IMG/VR virus record: IMGVR_UViG_3300032675_000009
Location: 1-64,000 of that record
Length of the DNA: 64,000 nt
Source of the DNA: a virus
Strand: one strand, 5' to 3'
Position 1 is the first letter of the stretch, and every line of letters starts with the position of its first letter. Below are positions 1 to 23,856 of the stretch, one piece after another. The notes under the pieces were generated by a model. It made no database searches. It was not told the origin of the DNA and saw nothing but the letters and a program-made list of their open reading frames with translations. Position numbers and translations under genes: made by a program.

Positions 1-23
1 ATTGATCGTCCAGTTGGCCCCAT

Positions 24-113
24 CCCCGATGCTGGCCGACTCCCCGATGCTGGCCGACTCCCCGATGCTGGCCGACTCCCCGATGCTGGCCGACTCCCCG
101 ATGCTGGCCCCCT
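24..113. repeat. 18-bp tandem repeat, about five units
   Basis: Four perfect 18-bp units (CCCCGATGCTGGCCGACT) followed by degenerate copies up to about position 131. The unit is a multiple of three and stop-free. On the minus strand one frame reads ASIGES hexapeptides preceded by a hydrophobic stretch and ANIGKG, like a left-handed beta-helix (hexapeptide-repeat) protein, but that frame has no ATG, GTG or TTG start in the window. Another minus frame has an ATG at 179 and reads low-complexity Ser/Pro/Arg. A third starts at the TAATG overlap at 195-197. The gene is cut by the window edge, so I do not choose a frame. Confidence 0.8.
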
Positions 114-195
114 TCCCGATGTTGGCTTGCGGGACGAAGACGGAGTGTACGAGGGCGATGACGATTCCAGCGAGGACATCTATGGTGCGGGCACA

Positions 196-1850: not shown

Positions 1851-2108
1851 CTAAGCGCCGAATGAGTCGGCAAGATCATCATGCGCCAATTTCGCCAGGT
1901 CGTCAAGATTTTTTTCTCCCTCGCGCGCGTTGGCTACGGTCGCCGGCTTGGGTTAGTTTCGAGACAGCCAGTACGTTACTTCGCAGTCGTGGCCAACCCT
2001 GAACGTAACCAAAAAGTACCTGTGCGCCCTACAGCGTGGCCCATCGCAATTGCAACCCAGGGCGCTTAGGCAATAGGCAAGCGGTAGTCTAAGGCGTCGT
2101 GTTGCCAT
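1851..2108 (-). pseudogene. small Cys-rich gene split by an in-frame TAA
   Basis: From ATG at 2108 (AAGG Shine-Dalgarno just upstream) the frame encodes about 51 residues (MATRRLRLPLAYCLSALGC and CNCDGPRCRAH), ending WLSRN at a TAA at 1953-1955. Directly after that stop the same frame stays open for 33 more codons, reading PKPATVANAREGEKNL and then DDLAKLAHDDLADSFGA, which looks like natural protein and has no start codon of its own. The simplest reading is one gene of about 85 aa with a nonsense mutation. A genuine 51-aa product, or readthrough, remains possible. Confidence 0.5.
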
Positions 2109-2214
2109 TCGCCTTCGAGTTATTTTCCCGTACCCTTGCCTCATCGATTAGCCTGTTCACAGCGTACTCCAAGCCACGCACGTAAGGGAAAAACCTGAGG
2201 AGCCATAGCAGCAT
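2089..2214 (-). CDS. small protein with hydrophobic N-terminus, 41 aa
   Basis: The frame starts MLLWLLRFFPYVRGLEYAV and continues as a charged helix to the stop, 20 bases inside the next gene. An AGG lies upstream of the ATG. The N-terminus could be a membrane anchor or an amphipathic helix. This is a prediction from composition and from the overlapping arrangement shared with its neighbours; no family is recognised. Confidence 0.45.
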   Translation of the reverse strand: MLLWLLRFFPYVRGLEYAVNRLIDEARVRENNSKANGNTTP

Positions 2215-2238
2215 CCTGCGGATATTGTAGCGGACGCA

Positions 2239-2335
2239 GGGCTCGGTTGCGGCACTGTCCGATCCTCGCGCATGAGTCTAAGGTAAACGTTTATCCATGC
2301 GGGGCTCGGTTGCGGCACTGTCCGATCCTCGCGCA
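2239..2335. repeat. 34-bp direct repeat, two copies 63 bp apart
   Basis: Two identical 34-bp copies lie at 2239-2272 and 2302-2335 (starting GGGCTCGGTTGCGGCACTGT). They sit upstream of the leftward genes that begin at 2214. A minus-strand frame through them reads REDRTVPQPSPA twice, but I consider a coding role doubtful. They could be regulatory or replication iterons, or a local duplication. Confidence 0.75.
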
Positions 2336-2443
2336 CAATCCAGCGCTCCATTTGCGCGCATCCATGATCTTCGCTCGCTCAGCCCGCATTTTACCATCTT
2401 CGCCTTTTCTTTATTTTTTTTGCGGTCAGGCCTTACTTTTCTG

Positions 2444-2472
2444 TTGACTTTCAAAACAGCTAGCTGTAAATT
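2444..2472 (+). promoter_or_regulatory. sigma70-like promoter with palindrome in spacer
   Basis: TTGACT at 2444-2449, a 17-bp spacer and TAAATT at 2467-2472. The end of the spacer and the first base of the -10 box form a perfect 12-bp palindrome ACAGCTAGCTGT (2456-2467), a plausible operator. It is followed by the 88-aa gene with a strong Shine-Dalgarno (TAAGGAG), so this is a well-formed isolated transcription unit facing away from the leftward operon. Confidence 0.7.
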
Positions 2473-2495
2473 AGGTGATGTAAGGAGATTTTAAT

Positions 2496-2762
2496 ATGCA
2501 AGAAATACTGCCCGAGGGATTCGGCCTGGGCTCACCAGAGGCCTGCCTACCAAGCAAAGTGATGGATGCTAGGGAGTTGGAAAGCATCCTGGAAGCGCGC
2601 CGGAACGCGCGCTACCCTGGCGGGGATGTGGCGGTGCTTAGCGCCGCCGAAATAATGGCGCTAAGCACCGCCGGAGTCATCTTCGTCAACGGCGAAGATG
2701 ACCGCTTCGCGGCCCTCACTGCCCACTTCCCCGATGGGGGTACGGTCGAAGGTATCTACTAG
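2496..2762 (+). CDS. small protein (88 aa) or structured RNA under a strong promoter
   Basis: The frame has a strong promoter, TAAGGAG Shine-Dalgarno and ATG at 2496, and encodes 88 residues beginning MQEILPEGFGLGSPEACL. No family is recognised. Its DNA contains three consecutive perfect inverted repeats (see 2594-2702), so the RNA may matter as much as the peptide. Its stop overlaps the 3' end of the convergent ISL3-like fragment. It is the only + strand gene among leftward early genes, suggesting an independently acquired unit such as a regulator. Confidence 0.55.
   Translation: MQEILPEGFGLGSPEACLPSKVMDARELESILEARRNARYPGGDVAVLSAAEIMALSTAGVIFVNGEDDRFAALTAHFPDGGTVEGIY
2594..2702 (+). repeat. 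three consecutive strong hairpins
   Basis: Stem 1: AGCGCGC (2594-2600) with GCGCGCT (2607-2613). Stem 2: a perfect 16-bp stem, GGCGGTGCTTAGCGCC (2630-2645) with its complement at 2657-2672 and an 11-nt loop. Stem 3: GTCATCTTCG (2676-2685) with CGAAGATGAC (2693-2702) and a 7-nt loop. No T-run follows, so these are not ordinary terminators. Three perfect stems in 109 bases inside an open frame strongly suggest selected RNA structure. Confidence 0.75.
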
Positions 2763-3190
2763 CGAAGGCGCTGGCGGCGGGCACTGCTGCGTTCGGCATC
2801 CTGCCGCCGGAGTCGATCCAGAAACCAGCGCTCGATTGTGGCCGGGGAAAGCCCTTCCCGCTTTCCCAGCCGGCTGCGGCTGATGCCGTCGAAATGCTTC
2901 TCCGATACCGCACGACGAAACGATTCCGTCGCCCGCAATCGCGGCAGGATCCCCGGGAACCTCTGCCAGAAGCTCTTTCCGCATCCCAGACACTTCCACT
3001 TCCGGCTCACCAGCTCCAGCATGCAATGCCGGGTTCCCCAGCTCTCATGCCGCGGCTGCCGCAACCGTTTGTCCCGTAGCCGCAGCCTTTCCCCTTGGCA
3101 GTGCGGGCACTCTACCTTCCCCCGGTATACCGCCCGGATCCCCACCACCCCACGCTTCTCTTCAATCCCGCTAATCTCATAGTCGGGCAA
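2759..3190 (-). pseudogene. ISL3-family transposase, N-terminal fragment
   Basis: The 143 residues match the front of ISL3-type transposases: a zinc ribbon (CPHC near residue 33, CLGCGKSFWQR near 68) followed by a helix-turn-helix region (RRAVSEKHFDGISRSRLGK, LSPATIERWF). The catalytic DDE domain that normally follows is absent; the frame ends soon after in RRQDAERSSARRQRLR. It is therefore a truncated transposase or a domesticated DNA-binding protein. I see no clear terminal inverted repeats, although a CTAG-rich palindrome lies just upstream of its start. Confidence 0.65.
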
Positions 3191-3217
3191 GCCGATTATC
3201 GCTTCTGTGCCTTGAGT

Positions 3218-3238
3218 AGTGCTAGACTAGCTAGCACT
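3218..3238. repeat. palindrome AGTGCTAG/CTAGCACT
   Basis: Perfect 8-bp inverted repeat with a 5-bp centre, 28 bp upstream of the ISL3-like gene's start. It could be an operator for that gene's product or a relic of an element end. The CTAG core recurs in the hairpins at 3453-3539. Confidence 0.6.
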
Positions 3239-3452
3239 AGCGTGGAAGCGGGAAATGCGGAGATTTGGCGCGGGAAGCTCAGATGCCGGAACCGCAAAAA
3301 GAGGCGATCTGAGGGGCATTTGAAGCACTTCGGGATGTCGCGGCACGTCTCGCTACCTCCGATTGCGCCATGAGGCGGAAAACTGGCAAGGCGCGGCGAT
3401 TCCGTAAGCGGGTTCGTCCGGATTCGGACAATGGGGCGGGCCCGAAACGCGG

Positions 3453-3491
3453 AAACGCCCCTGCTACCGGAGACCGATAGCAGGGGCGTTT
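3453..3491. terminator. 14-bp stem-loop, probable bidirectional terminator
   Basis: AAACGCCCCTGCTA pairs perfectly with TAGCAGGGGCGTTT around an 11-nt loop. It lies beyond the 3' end of the leftward gene 3569-4180. The T-runs are short, so termination strength is uncertain. Confidence 0.55.
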
Positions 3492-3508
3492 GGATGCGCC
3501 TAGACGTG

Positions 3509-3539
3509 AAAAAGCCCTGCTAGCTTGCACTAGCAGGGC
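3509..3539 (-). terminator. intrinsic terminator of the 3569-4180 gene
   Basis: GCCCTGCTAG (3514-3523) pairs with CTAGCAGGGC (3530-3539) around a 6-nt loop. On the minus strand the stem is followed by five T. It sits 30 bases after the stop of the leftward gene. Confidence 0.75.
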
Positions 3540-3568
3540 GTTGGTAGGGTGTGGAATTGAGAGCGGGA

Positions 3569-4180
3569 CTAGCTAGCCAGTTTGGCTTTGACCTGTTCGA
3601 GCGTCAGCTCCGATCCTGCCTTTTGGGTGAATTGGCTGTAGTTGGCAACCAGAAACTCGCGCACGGCCTTGCACTGACTTTCGCTGAATAGTGCTACGGC
3701 TCCGCTGAGATAAGCCGTGATGGGGAAGCGATTCAGTCCGTATATGCTGAGAGCGCCACCTGGAGATTTTTCGCCTGTTGGCTTACCGTTCTTATCCTTC
3801 CGCTCCGTTCCGCCTGCGCTCACTTTGAGGGTAATCTTCCCAGCGGCATTGCGTTCCCGGGCCGCCTCGAGGTAAGCAACTCGCGCACTGAGATAGGCTA
3901 GCTCGCCCTGCGTGCCTAACGGAAAATCAGCGCGGATCGGGTTGAGCAATGCAGGTTTTCCTGCTCTCTTGCGCGCTTCAATCTCCGCGTTTTCCCTGGC
4001 CTCCAAGAGCGCAAACTCTTGATCCTCAATGATTTCTTCAATGGTTTCTCCCTTGCCCATGCGAGCAAGGATATCATCGGCTGATACGCCTAGGCTGATG
4101 GCCCTGGACATAAGAGCCTGAGCCTTTGCGGTAGCCTTATCGGCTTGGGTGTTGCTGAGTGCTGTCTGTGGTGTTGCCAT
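3569..4180 (-). CDS. conserved phage protein of unknown function, 203 aa
   Basis: A 203-residue soluble protein with an acidic helical N-terminal half (EEIIEDQEFALLEARENAE) and a C-terminal region with KITLKVSAGG, then GALSIYGLNRFPITAYLSG. The 'S-YGL-RFP-T-Y' segment recurs, as far as I recall, in small uncharacterised phage and bacterial proteins. It is followed by a clear terminator and is one of the first genes behind the leftward promoter at 4660-4688, so it is probably made early. No enzymatic motif is visible. Confidence 0.7.
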   Translation of the reverse strand: MATPQTALSNTQADKATAKAQALMSRAISLGVSADDILARMGKGETIEEIIEDQEFALLEARENAEIEARKRAGKPALLNPIRADFPLGTQGELAYLSARVAYLEAARERNAAGKITLKVSAGGTERKDKNGKPTGEKSPGGALSIYGLNRFPITAYLSGAVALFSESQCKAVREFLVANYSQFTQKAGSELTLEQVKAKLAS

Positions 4181-4266
4181 GGTTGTAAGTTCCTTTTCTG
4201 AGGTTTAGTATTAGTGTGCCTCATACGGCGCACCGGGAGTGCCAATGCACCGAAGTGGCACGCTAC

Positions 4267-4503
4267 CTACCAGTAGAGGACTGAGGCCCCCAAACTGATC
4301 ACCCTACACCCTGCCAGCCTCAGGACCGAGACGCATTCCGCTCGTTCGCGTTTGTCCGGCACGTCCACCTGCGCGATCTCACGCCGTGGCTTGCGTTCAG
4401 GGCCATCCGGCGAGATATCCCGCGCCTTGGACTCCTCCATCAGCGGCAAGCAAGCTAACAATTGCCGCTCTTGTACCGATGTTGGCCATTGCGTTAGAGG
4501 CAT
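4267..4503 (-). CDS. hypothetical early protein, 78 aa
   Basis: A GGAGG Shine-Dalgarno stands ahead of the ATG at 4503, and the frame overlaps the end of the upstream 41-aa gene. The product starts MPLTQWPTSVQERQLLACL and is charged in the middle. I recognise no family. The ribosome-binding site and operon position are the main support. A GTGCCA/TGGCAC hairpin lies just past its stop (4239-4261). Confidence 0.55.
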   Translation of the reverse strand: MPLTQWPTSVQERQLLACLPLMEESKARDISPDGPERKPRREIAQVDVPDKRERAECVSVLRLAGCRVISLGASVLYW

Positions 4504-4688: not shown

Positions 4689-4800
4689 GCAAAAATGTGG
4701 ATTCGCCGCAAGTGGTTGATTTTAAAGGGCATTCGTTAAGGTTGTGGGTTGTGTGTAGTGTCCGCCTAGTAGCAGGGTATCCATAGATTGCATCACTAGC

Positions 4801-4877
4801 CATCACGTGATGCTAGGGGCATACGATGCCATCCGCTGCCATCGCTAGACATCACATGCCATCGCCATCACGTGATG
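4801..4877. promoter_or_regulatory. operator cluster with CATCACGTGATG palindromes
   Basis: Two perfect 12-bp palindromes CATCACGTGATG lie at 4801-4812 and 4866-4877, with a half-site ACATCAC between them near 4851. The second is followed at once by TATATA. The same half-site is used in the promoter at 4991-5029, so all are probably bound by one regulator that controls the divergent region. Confidence 0.7.
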
Positions 4878-4990
4878 TATATAGGGGAGAGGCACAGGGG
4901 GTAGCTCCTCTTAGCCAGGGCGGCCGGCGGGAAAAGATCGTCTCCAGTGTGGCCTCACACAAAAAAAATAAAAAAACAGAATCCAATCTG

Positions 4991-5029
4991 TTGACAATTA
5001 TCTGACATCACATGTAATCTAGTGATGTC
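4991..5029 (+). promoter_or_regulatory. rightward early promoter overlapped by operator
   Basis: TTGACA at 4991-4996, an 18-bp spacer and TAATCT at 5015-5020. GACATCAC (5004-5011) and GTGATGTC (5022-5029) form a perfect 8-bp inverted repeat bracketing the -10 box, so a bound repressor would block polymerase. The first downstream gene is the RNA ligase at 5079 with a GGAGAAAGG ribosome site. Confidence 0.8.
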
Positions 5030-5078
5030 GATTACACATGATGCTTTTTATCCATACGGTGGAGAAAGGTAACCGAAA

Positions 5079-5986
5079 ATGAACAGTTGGCATGGTTACC
5101 CGTCGCTTTACAACTTGGGGCGCAGGGCGATAGAGCGGTTGTTGAAGGTGCCAGTAAATGTGGAGGAGAAGGTGGATGGGTCGCAGTTCTCGTTTGGAGT
5201 GACTGAGGCGGGGGAGATTAAGGTTCGGTCGAAAGGGGCGCAGTTGAATGTGGTTGCGCCGGAGAAGATGTTTGCGAGAGCGATCGATGTGGTGAAGGAG
5301 TTGGCGCCGAGCCTGACGCCTGGATGGACTTACCGGGCGGAGTATTTGGCGAAGTCGAAGCACAATTCGTTGATGTATAGCCGGGTACCGGTGAAGCACC
5401 TGATCGTGTTCGATGTGTGTGTGGGGGAGGAGGCGTATCTCTCTTATGGGGACAAGGCGGCAGATGCGGGGCGGATTGGGTGGTGCCGCTGTTGTTCTCG
5501 GGGATGTTGGAGGATGTGGAGGTGTTGAGGAAGTTGTTGGACACCGAGAGCATCTTGGGTGGGCAGAAGATTGAAGGCGTGGTGGTGAAGCCGGCGGATT
5601 ACGGGTTGTACGGGGAGGATAAGAAGGTCCTGCTGGGGAAGTTTGTGAGTGAAGCGTTTAAGGAGATCCACGCGGTGGAGTGGAAGAAAACGAACCAGTC
5701 GCAGGGGGACATCTTGGAGATGTTGAAAGAGGAGTACCGGAGTCCGGCTCGGTGGCAGAAGGCGGTGATTCATCTCCGGGAGCGGGGGCTGATTGAGAAC
5801 TCTGCGCGGGACATCGGCTTGTTGATTAAAGAGGTGAGCTCGGATATTGACGCGGATAGTAAGGAAGCGATCAAGGAGCAGTTGTTTCAGTGGGCGTGGC
5901 CGCATATCCAGCGGGCGTCGACGGCGGGATTGCCGGAGTGGTATAAGGAGCAGTTGTTGATGTCGCAGTTTGAGGTAGGCGAGTGA
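5079..5986 (+). pseudogene. RNA ligase, Rnl2-like, with a frameshift
   Basis: Nucleotidyltransferase-type RNA ligase. Motif I is EEKVDGSQ with the adenylated Lys near residue 31, followed by the conserved YRAEYL region, motif IV KIEGVVVKP and motif V KVLLGKF. These lie in two frames: the first runs from ATG 5079 to about 5483, the second continues from about 5480 to 5986. Joining them by a -1 shift (or one missing base) near 5470-5490 gives a protein of about 302 aa with all ligase motifs, typical of the Rnl2 group, which seals nicked RNA in repair. It heads the rightward early operon. The shift may be a mutation, a sequencing error in the G-rich stretch, or programmed frameshifting. Confidence 0.75.
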
Positions 5987-14094: not shown

Positions 14095-16248
14095 ATGCGA
14101 ACACTCATCCTGTTGTTACTCGCGAATGGTGTAGTCTTTGGGCAAGGCGGTCCGAGCGGGCCGGGGCCAGTTCCGTTTCAGTTCCGCGTAGTGTCGACCG
14201 ATCCGAGCGGCACGTGCTCGAACGCTTCCCTGCCATACTTCTCGACCCAGGCGGGAACGGGTGGACCGTTCTTTGGATGTGGCAATGGAACGATAGCAAA
14301 GATTGGGCAGGGTGGCACTGTTACGGCGATCACGGGCACCGGTCCCATCACGGCGACAGGAACAACCAGCGTTACCATCGCCTGCCCCACCTGTGTAACC
14401 TGGACCAACTACGCGGTGACCATCGCGAACGGCGGCAGCGGTGCCATCACCATGACCACGCCGAGCACGTCATTCACAGCGGCGCGGGCAGATGCGGGGC
14501 AGACGTTTACGGGTTCTCAAACTTTCAGCAGTCAGATTCTTGGACAAGGAGGGTTTAACGACGCGACCGGGCAAACAGCAATCAGCGGAACTAACTACAG
14601 CAGTGCGGGGTATATCGCGCAAGGTTCCTACTACAACGGGTCCGCTGGCGCAAACGACGTCTGGACGATAAAAAACGTCCTCAGTACAGGCACCAATCCG
14701 ACCAGTACGCTGACGTTCTCGCATAGCGGGAGTAGTGGGACGAGCACGGTATCACTGCCGGGATTGACGATTGCGGGTGGCGCTCAAATCATAACTGGCT
14801 CAACAGCGACAGATTCGGCGTCGCTTGGTGCTGAGCTAACTACATCTGGAGGGACCACTTCCACTGGATGGACTGGAACCTTCCCGACATTCACAAATGG
14901 AGCCTCAAATACTTCGCCGCTAACATATACCATTTCAGGTATTGGGTCTGGGCAGTTATATCAACTTGTTTTTACGCTTTCATCCGTAACTGGCGGCACG
15001 GTGGATGTGAGTATCGGGGGAACGGACCTGGGTAATTACGGATCGAATGGAACGACCACCATCGGACCCAAAACGGTAAGCTCAGCGGCTTTAATAGTCA
15101 CCCCGACATCGTCGTTCGCTGGAACCTTCACGATCTCCGTAAAGCGGATAACCGCCATTCCAAGTTACTACCTGACTTTAACCGACAGCACTGGCGCAGT
15201 GTCGTTACAGGTTGGACAATACTTGGCATCGCTGAATAATTCATCGGTTGGCCGCAACGCACTCCTGAACAACACAACCGGAAACCAAAACTCCGCACAG
15301 GGAGTAAGCGCACTCCAGAACAACACAACCGGAGTCCAAAACTCCGCACAGGGAGTAGCCGCACTCCTCAGCAACACAACCGGAAGCCTAAACTCCGCAC
15401 AGGGAGTAAGCGCACTCCAGAACAACACAACCGGAAGCCAAAACTCCGCACAGGGAGTAGCCGCACTCCTGAACAACACAACCGGAAACCAAAACTCCGC
15501 ACAGGGAGTAAGCGCACTCCTCAGCAACACAACCGGAAGCCTAAACTCCGCACAGGGAGTAAGCGCACTCCAGAACAACACAACCGGAGTCCAAAACTCC
15601 GCACAGGGAGTAGCCGCACTCCAGAGCAACACAACCGGAAGCCTAAACTCCGCACAGGGAGTAAGCGCACTCCAGAACAACACAACCGGAGCCCAAAACT
15701 CCGCACAGGGAGCAGCCGCACTCCAGAGCAACACAACCGGAAGCCTAAACTCCGCACAGGGATATCAGGCTGGATACGGCACTTCTGCTACGAACGCTAA
15801 CACCACAGGCAGCAATAACACTTTTGTCGGTTCCTACTCTGCACCAGGATCTTCGACACAGCAGACGTACATGACGGTAATCGGTTCCAGCGCAACTGCA
15901 TCATGCAATTCGTGTGTACAGCTGGGGAGGGCGCAGGATATTACCTACTCGGCAGGGTATGCCTCTAGCGGAACCAAATTTACAATTTCTGGATGTTCCG
16001 CCGGGACTACGGTTGGTGGGGCAACGGCCGGAAGTTTCTCCAGCGGCACTACAGGAACATGCACAGTTACGGTGACTATGGACGGAGCAACTGGATTGAC
16101 CGCACCGAATGGATGGTCTTGTTGGGCATCAGACACAACGACGACGGCGGACACGATCCTTATGACCGCATCAACGACCACCACTGCTACGTTTTCTGGC
16201 ACTACGGTATCGGGGGACGTTATTAAGTTTGGATGTGTGGGTTACTGA
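14095..16248 (+). CDS. secreted or fibre protein with YadA-head-like repeats, 717 aa
   Basis: The start MRTLILLLLANGVVFGQGGP is a typical short Sec signal peptide. A Gly/Ser/Thr-rich beta region follows (residues about 20-385). Residues about 390-560 are ten 17-residue repeats of the form LQNNTTGSQNSAQGVSA, like the NTTGxNxxxG repeats of trimeric autotransporter heads and some phage fibres. The tail is again Thr/Gly-rich with several Cys. A fibre would not normally carry a signal peptide, so a protein exported to the cell surface is equally possible. It overlaps the convergent sigma-factor gene by seven bases. ATG 14095 is preferred over upstream in-frame codons because of the signal peptide. 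Confidence 0.7.
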   Translation: MRTLILLLLANGVVFGQGGPSGPGPVPFQFRVVSTDPSGTCSNASLPYFSTQAGTGGPFFGCGNGTIAKIGQGGTVTAITGTGPITATGTTSVTIACPTCVTWTNYAVTIANGGSGAITMTTPSTSFTAARADAGQTFTGSQTFSSQILGQGGFNDATGQTAISGTNYSSAGYIAQGSYYNGSAGANDVWTIKNVLSTGTNPTSTLTFSHSGSSGTSTVSLPGLTIAGGAQIITGSTATDSASLGAELTTSGGTTSTGWTGTFPTFTNGASNTSPLTYTISGIGSGQLYQLVFTLSSVTGGTVDVSIGGTDLGNYGSNGTTTIGPKTVSSAALIVTPTSSFAGTFTISVKRITAIPSYYLTLTDSTGAVSLQVGQYLASLNNSSVGRNALLNNTTGNQNSAQGVSALQNNTTGVQNSAQGVAALLSNTTGSLNSAQGVSALQNNTTGSQNSAQGVAALLNNTTGNQNSAQGVSALLSNTTGSLNSAQGVSALQNNTTGVQNSAQGVAALQSNTTGSLNSAQGVSALQNNTTGAQNSAQGAAALQSNTTGSLNSAQGYQAGYGTSATNANTTGSNNTFVGSYSAPGSSTQQTYMTVIGSSATASCNSCVQLGRAQDITYSAGYASSGTKFTISGCSAGTTVGGATAGSFSSGTTGTCTVTVTMDGATGLTAPNGWSCWASDTTTTADTILMTASTTTTATFSGTTVSGDVIKFGCVGY
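15262..15771. repeat. 51-bp tandem repeat, ten units
   Basis: Ten in-frame 51-bp units coding LxxNTTGxxNSAQGVxA. Units alternate among a few variants (NQ, VQ, SL, SQ or AQ after TTG) and share long identical stretches such as AACTCCGCACAGGGAGTA, indicating recent recombination or gene conversion. Confidence 0.9.
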
Positions 16249-16754
16249 ACCATCGCCCGAAGCCGCGCAATGGCCCTGGCGTGGATCTGAGAAACGTGGT
16301 TCCAGCCGTACTTGGTCCGGTAGCCAAGAGCATGTGCGGTTTCTTTGAGCGATAGACCTTCACAGAACCTAGCGCGTACCACAGCCAATTCCAGCGGGAG
16401 AAGCTCCTCTGCGGCCATCGCCCAAAAAGCGGGGTACTCAAACGGCTCCTCGCACCTTCGGCTCATGGCGTGACGGAACATCACGCGGGTTTCCAGACGC
16501 TCAGCGAAGCCCACTTCACGCCCTGCACGTCTCGCCCAGTCCATGCGCCTGAGTCCGTCCCTGATTGCGCCATGGACCCGCTGACCGGCATAAGCGTTGA
16601 ACGGCACGCCTGAGGAAACATCGTACTTGTTCGCCGCTTCAACGAGCCCGACCATGCCATCACTGATCAAGTCCTCTTTGTCCCAAATGCGCCAATAGTG
16701 GCGCTTGACGATAGCGTAAACGATGGCGAAGTCTTGCTCGGTCAGGGCGTGCAT
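16242..16754 (-). CDS. RNA polymerase sigma factor, sigma70 family, 170 aa
   Basis: Alternative sigma factor that would redirect host RNA polymerase. Region 2 is clear at residues about 10-72: WDKEDLISDGMVGLVEAANK, YDVSSGVPFNAYAGQRVHGA and IRDGLRRMDWARR, as in FliA/SigB-type factors. Region 4 (about 115-165) has LPLELAVVRARFCEGLSLKE and TAHALGYRTKYGWNHVSQIH, a helix-turn-helix for the -35 box. Region 3 is reduced. It lies antisense in the late region, two bases after the 16757-17029 gene, and could recognise the repeated TGCTAGAAT promoters around it. The promoter link is inference. Confidence 0.85.
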   Translation of the reverse strand: MHALTEQDFAIVYAIVKRHYWRIWDKEDLISDGMVGLVEAANKYDVSSGVPFNAYAGQRVHGAIRDGLRRMDWARRAGREVGFAERLETRVMFRHAMSRRCEEPFEYPAFWAMAAEELLPLELAVVRARFCEGLSLKETAHALGYRTKYGWNHVSQIHARAIARLRAMVQ

Positions 16755-23779: not shown

Positions 23780-23856
23780 AGCGCGGTAGAGCAGTCAGGT
23801 AGCTCGAATGGCTCATAACCATTAGGCCGCTGGTTCAAATCCAGCCCGCGCCACCA
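23780..23856 (+). tRNA. tRNA-Met (CAU anticodon), initiator-like
   Basis: A full cloverleaf of 77 nt with encoded CCA. Acceptor AGCGCGG pairs with CCGCGCC except for an A1/C72 mismatch. D stem GAGC/GCTC has the A11-U24 pair usual for initiators. The anticodon arm is AATGG CTCATAA CCATT, the T arm GCTGG TTCAAAT CCAGC. The unpaired first position and A11-U24 resemble initiator tRNA-fMet, although only two of the usual three G-C pairs flank the anticodon loop. A terminator follows. Confidence 0.9.

Follow-up and report, generated by a model that had tools for sequence, protein, structure and literature searches.

What does a phage make from a short transcription unit that carries three perfect hairpins in 109 bases: a structured RNA, a protein or both? 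The question is raised by positions 2444-2762 of the virus record IMGVR_UViG_3300032675_000009, which an initial annotation, made from the letters alone, read as a strong promoter driving a structured or dual-function RNA. The record is 83,313 bp long, and the window, the whole stretch of 64,000 bases analysed here, is its bases 1-64000. Since it encodes a terminase, a portal, a major head protein, a tail protein and a DnaB-like helicase, the record is that of a tailed phage. The record ends have the beginning of an 18-bp tandem array in common (window 1-126; L007 19126-19313), and a circular or circularly permuted genome is therefore probable.

The distant relatives G001 and G003 match the virion and replication genes at roughly 24-68% identity. 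For the first 10 kb, no called gene matched at E <= 1e-4, and the hairpin unit sits in the variable part of the phage. Genes were called with a home-made script, which left out the ISL3 ORF described below and may have missed or misplaced others. The phage also encodes a sigma-70-type factor with regions 2 and 4 (16242-16754, minus strand). The possibility of an N4-type virion RNA polymerase with hairpin promoters was not supported by any family match of the three giant proteins.

The promoter and its shared operator

Two features define the start of the unit:

2444-2472, plus strand: sigma70-type promoter TTGACT-17-TAAATT, 9/12 to consensus; similar promoters occur twice more in the record
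2452-2467, plus strand: operator CAAAACAGCTAGCTGT in the spacer between -35 and -10, with an exact 16-nt copy elsewhere in the record

A promoter is present, but to call it strong was generous at 9/12, and three such sites occur in 6 kb against 2.6 expected. A lone consensus match is therefore worth little, and the promoter is convincing because it is one of three with the same operator. The core palindrome, ACAGCTAGCTGT, lies at 2456-2467, inside the spacer. The exact 16-nt copy of CAAAACAGCTAGCTGT is found at L007 16140-16155 on the minus strand (record about 80140-80155), in TTGACACAAAACAGCTAGCTGTTTTAATC, and a third version, TTGACATACAAAACACCATGCTGTAAAGT, at 81917, also on the minus strand. 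The degenerate operator ACASCWWGSTGT, which was derived from the three sites themselves, matches exactly three places in 83 kb, all of them promoter spacers. Each copy lies between a TTGACW -35 and a -10 in a near-identical layout. When scored on 26 positions, the three operator-promoters reach 25 (the unit's site, which is the reference itself), 22 and 22, against a maximum of 18 in shuffled records (n=10).

The operator-like palindrome that had been noticed in the spacer is thereby strongly supported, in that the same site occupies the same place at three promoters of the phage, above chance, as would be expected of an operator-controlled promoter set. By these sequence comparisons the palindrome is a real phage motif, and the unit probably belongs to a phage regulon of three promoters. 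The exact operator-promoter pattern had no match in viral_contigs. Downstream of the promoter at about 80.1 kb lie leftward genes at 79938-80093 and then 79573-79941, followed by a 647-aa gene at 77542-79485, and downstream of that at about 81.9 kb lies the leftward gene 81593-81871; these genes are mostly small. Among the phage genes, no cognate regulator gene could be singled out. The ISL3-type Zn-ribbon/HTH ORF and an HNH-like protein with a possible DNA-binding tail (L007 16405-16971) are candidates only.

Other palindromes also recur in the record. With up to 2 mismatches, TGTCCGGATTCGGACA has 19 sites:

Window: 3415-3430, 12125, 18153, 25071, 28333, 31840, 40954, 42348, 43167, 46009, 50727, 51315, 55372, 55562, 59017
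L007: 2602, 8183, 11259, 17929

With up to 3 mismatches, there are 29 strand matches in the window against 0.75 expected. One copy of TGTCCGGATTCGGACA is in a promoter spacer (12116), and one is beside the third promoter at 81.9 kb. The distribution is stoperator-like, and the sites are palindromic; those of mycobacteriophage L5 are asymmetric 13-mers (PMC9283540). At about 4800-5030, repeated CATCACGTGATG-like palindromes, seen by eye ahead of an RNA ligase-like ORF (5079-5528), suggest another operator. The RNA ligase-like gene at 5079-5986 is apparently split across frames (5079-5528 and 5534-5986) by a frameshift or a sequencing error.

A probable coding frame with palindromes

The remainder of the unit comprises a reading frame and the stems within it:

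2482-2487, plus strand: Shine-Dalgarno AAGGAG, 8 nt before the ATG at 2496
2496-2762, plus strand: 88-aa ORF for an orphan protein, probably translated by its own-frame codon usage; single-sequence model
2564-2570/2583-2589, plus strand: additional 7-bp stem inside the ORF
2594-2600/2607-2613, plus strand: perfect 7-bp stem inside the ORF
2630-2645/2657-2672, plus strand: perfect 16-bp stem with an 11-nt gap, folding as 18 bp at -35.8 kcal/mol
2676-2685/2693-2702, plus strand: perfect 10-bp stem with a 7-nt gap, folding as 12 bp with one G-U at -16.3 kcal/mol

The perfect stems of 7, 16 and 10 bp described earlier are present in succession at 2594-2702, within a small open frame of 88 codons, and the good Shine-Dalgarno is found ahead of its ATG. 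A codon score was trained on 11 phage genes, which themselves score 0.119-0.270. The ORF scores 0.102 per codon in its own frame and -0.389 to 0.011 in the other frames, and it has both the own-frame codon usage and the ribosome-binding site looked for in a translated gene. The codon adaptation index is 0.84 for the hairpins and 0.71 for the remainder of the ORF, with 0.75 as the median over genes. In the predicted transcript, little pairing involves the start codon or the bases immediately ahead of it, and the Shine-Dalgarno is partly paired.

The protein is an orphan. No homologues were found by pattern scans of viral_contigs and genome_contigs or in five related phage records plus one more, and tblastn searches to E 10 of phages and plasmids returned 3 and 9 records at best E values of 1 to 9, which are not credible. 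A local tblastn match to L019 (25 residues, E 0.12) was judged to be chance. DNA similarity to 2000-4400 was absent from phages, and in plasmids was limited to a 37-base match to a Streptomyces gene, at the ISL3 ORF. A single-sequence model of the protein, helix-helix-three strands, has a mean pLDDT of 67 and is weak, given that four of five models are near 40. Fold searches with the predicted model gave nothing at E <= 0.001, and glyoxalase-like matches at E about 0.1 were too weak to be used.

It is very unlikely that the unit specifies a non-coding structured RNA with an incidental ORF. Its exceptional hairpins and orphan peptide speak for such an RNA, but the good Shine-Dalgarno, the 88 open codons, phage codon usage in that frame only and the preferred codons within the stems all argue for translation. 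The ORF is most likely a translated ORFan gene and not a non-coding RNA.

Among the called genes of the record no stem is longer than the 16-bp one, and 40 codon-permuted sets of all called genes contained no stem of at least 13 bp against the one of 16 bp observed. In 20 sequences simulated from an order-2 Markov null of the window, 12-bp perfect stems occurred at 0.1 per sequence and none was longer, compared with one of 16 bp and one of 14 bp in the window itself. When the protein and codon set of the ORF are held fixed, the 16-bp stem is reached in 28 of 12,000 permutations and the summed stem length in 3 of 12,000; a smaller null (two sets of 500) never gave a 16-bp stem, and the larger run provides the value used. 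The stem can be reached because, by coordinates, third codon positions of its arms pair with third positions, and first and second positions, mostly fixed by the peptide, pair with each other. The palindrome therefore seems to be largely written into the peptide, with the peptide itself encoded on both arms.

The stems are not terminators, as had been claimed: no T run follows the 16-bp stem (GGAGTCAT) or the 10-bp stem (CGCTTCGC), and the terminator scan lists no intrinsic (Rho-independent) terminator on the plus strand at the unit. Nor does the unit match a known RNA family among the Rfam 15 covariance models at gathering level, for which a tRNA at 23780-23853 is the sole match in the window.

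The folding results bear on the proposed dual-function RNA, a peptide message that would also carry selected tandem 18-bp and 12-bp hairpins, for example as an RNase III or protein-binding site or as a ribosome brake. The structural half of this proposal holds. Of 16,634 segments of 76 nt scanned over the two strands of the record, the one that begins at 2631 has the greatest stability, so that selection on the RNA would be possible, and both the rarity of the summed stems and the lack of a 16-bp stem in any of the 40 permuted gene sets point the same way. In the codon-preserving folding check that had been suggested, the ORF is low in energy (z = -3.35; 1 of 500 permutations as low, with protein and codons fixed), but the whole-ORF value of z = -3.09 (20 permutations) ranks only 8 among the 255 of 263 coding segments of the phage that were compared, and is matched or exceeded by 7 others. 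Sense and antisense folds of the unit are almost equal, at -52.1 and -50.7, as a palindrome in the DNA would give, and the two perfect stems can thus be regarded equally as a DNA palindrome and as an RNA structure. With the coding-like frame, the preferred hairpin codons and the empty Rfam result also against an RNA function, the dual-function reading is possible but not favoured.

The ISL3-type neighbour and the surrounding stems

Three further features lie to the right of the unit:

2759-3190, minus strand: stand-alone ISL3-type Zn-ribbon and HTH ORF that lacks a DDE domain, convergent with the unit and sharing the bases CTAG at its stop
3453-3491, no strand assigned: 14-bp hairpin with A/T flanks; may serve the unit's transcript as a bidirectional terminator
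3514-3539, minus strand: site resembling an intrinsic terminator, belonging to the leftward gene 3569-4180, from the terminator scan

The unit does point opposite to its neighbours, in that the ISL3-type ORF and gene 3569-4180 run leftward, and the ISL3 fragment next door was confirmed. It is not an insertion sequence with a complete transposase: the DDE domain PF01610 is absent from the 83-kb record, and control genomes were positive. The ORF has a codon score of -0.127, unlike phage genes. It has no relatives in viral and genome contigs, and five plasmid records gave weak ISL3 matches. For gene 3569-4180, no relatives were found.

Six perfect stems of at least 9 bp occur in the window, five of them at 2630-3539. 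This clustering, together with an adjoining ORF that lacks a DDE domain and differs from the phage in codon usage, could mean that the hairpins are the ends or a MITE-like relic of an ISL3-type element. Such an origin is highly improbable, given that the codon usage of the unit's ORF and its promoter operator are phage-like, unlike the ISL3 ORF, and that its stems have no second copy in the record. The cluster itself is of mixed nature, and part of it is terminator-like, because 3514-3539 resembles a terminator and 3453-3491 is a putative bidirectional one.

Some other repeats were noted nearby. A 9-bp perfect stem, TAGTGCTAGACTAGCTAGCACTA, lies at 3217-3239 upstream of the ISL3-type ORF, and GCTAGC is dense near that ORF, with 5 of its 15 record copies within 2459-3902. 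Just upstream of the unit, a direct repeat of about 33-37 bp was seen by eye in two nearly identical copies (2241-2273 and 2304-2336), 63 bp apart.

The proposed reading and known systems

The unit is probably an operator-controlled accessory phage gene, a translated ORFan whose mRNA carries a coding palindrome and whose stems act at most in cis. A phage or host regulator would bind the palindrome between -35 and -10 and switch the unit together with the two leftward small-gene sets at about 80.1 and 81.9 kb. The three promoters share sites and layout; a common regulator is presumed, and repression would be its simplest sign. A short mRNA, made while the promoter is unoccupied, would be translated from the good Shine-Dalgarno into the 88-aa ORFan protein, as the codon statistics suggest. 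The 16- and 10-bp stems are real structure in the mRNA and in its DNA, and may have arisen, most plausibly, when template switching perfected a quasi-palindrome where the peptide tolerates one. The best reading of them is as a coding palindrome, a structure within an mRNA, given a perfect repeat in a frame that looks translated from its sequence. They might act in cis on translation or on the lifetime of the mRNA, by ribosome slowing or message shielding. A more elaborate scheme is unlikely, in which a message with a private operator and tandem 18-bp and 12-bp coding hairpins would let ribosome density switch RNA processing or host-factor capture, coupling the ORFan protein to an RNA signal.

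The shared operator at three phage promoters, as recognised by sequence, is the new result of the analysis. In the literature, searched to a limited extent, coding palindromes are already described for hairworm mitochondria (PMC6649704), and an operator placed between promoter hexamers is a textbook feature. A hairpin curiosity can be recast as a testable regulon, with one operator common to three promoters of an uncultured phage, one of which drives a gene showing how far coding sequence can be palindromic. If the hairpins are cis-acting, the unit is a compact model of structure within a translated phage message; if not, it illustrates cleanly how a palindrome can form inside a gene.

Lambda-type early promoters have a spacer or overlapping operator. 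The phage resembles these in that several of its promoters have sigma70-type hexamers with an intervening palindrome, and differs in that the unit's exact pattern is unmatched in viral_contigs and its regulator is not singled out. Rickettsia palindromic elements, which PMC6649704 also mentions, are palindromes inserted within genes and likewise place a palindrome inside an ORF, but the phage stems lack repeated copies in the record. Type I toxin mRNAs with metastable structures also embed structure in a small coding mRNA, according to PMC6733600. By contrast, the 88-aa protein shows no toxin sign, and no antisense promoter was found inside the phage unit: a consensus scan gave no minus-strand sigma70-like site in 2440-3200, where a non-consensus promoter is possible. 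There is also a likeness in form to mitochondrial genes of Nematomorpha, for which PMC6649704 describes perfect inverted repeats inside translated genes, with both arms coding, and discusses template switching as their origin. In those genomes the repeats are numerous and up to 284 bp long, whereas in the phage they are 16 and 10 bp and are found in one gene.
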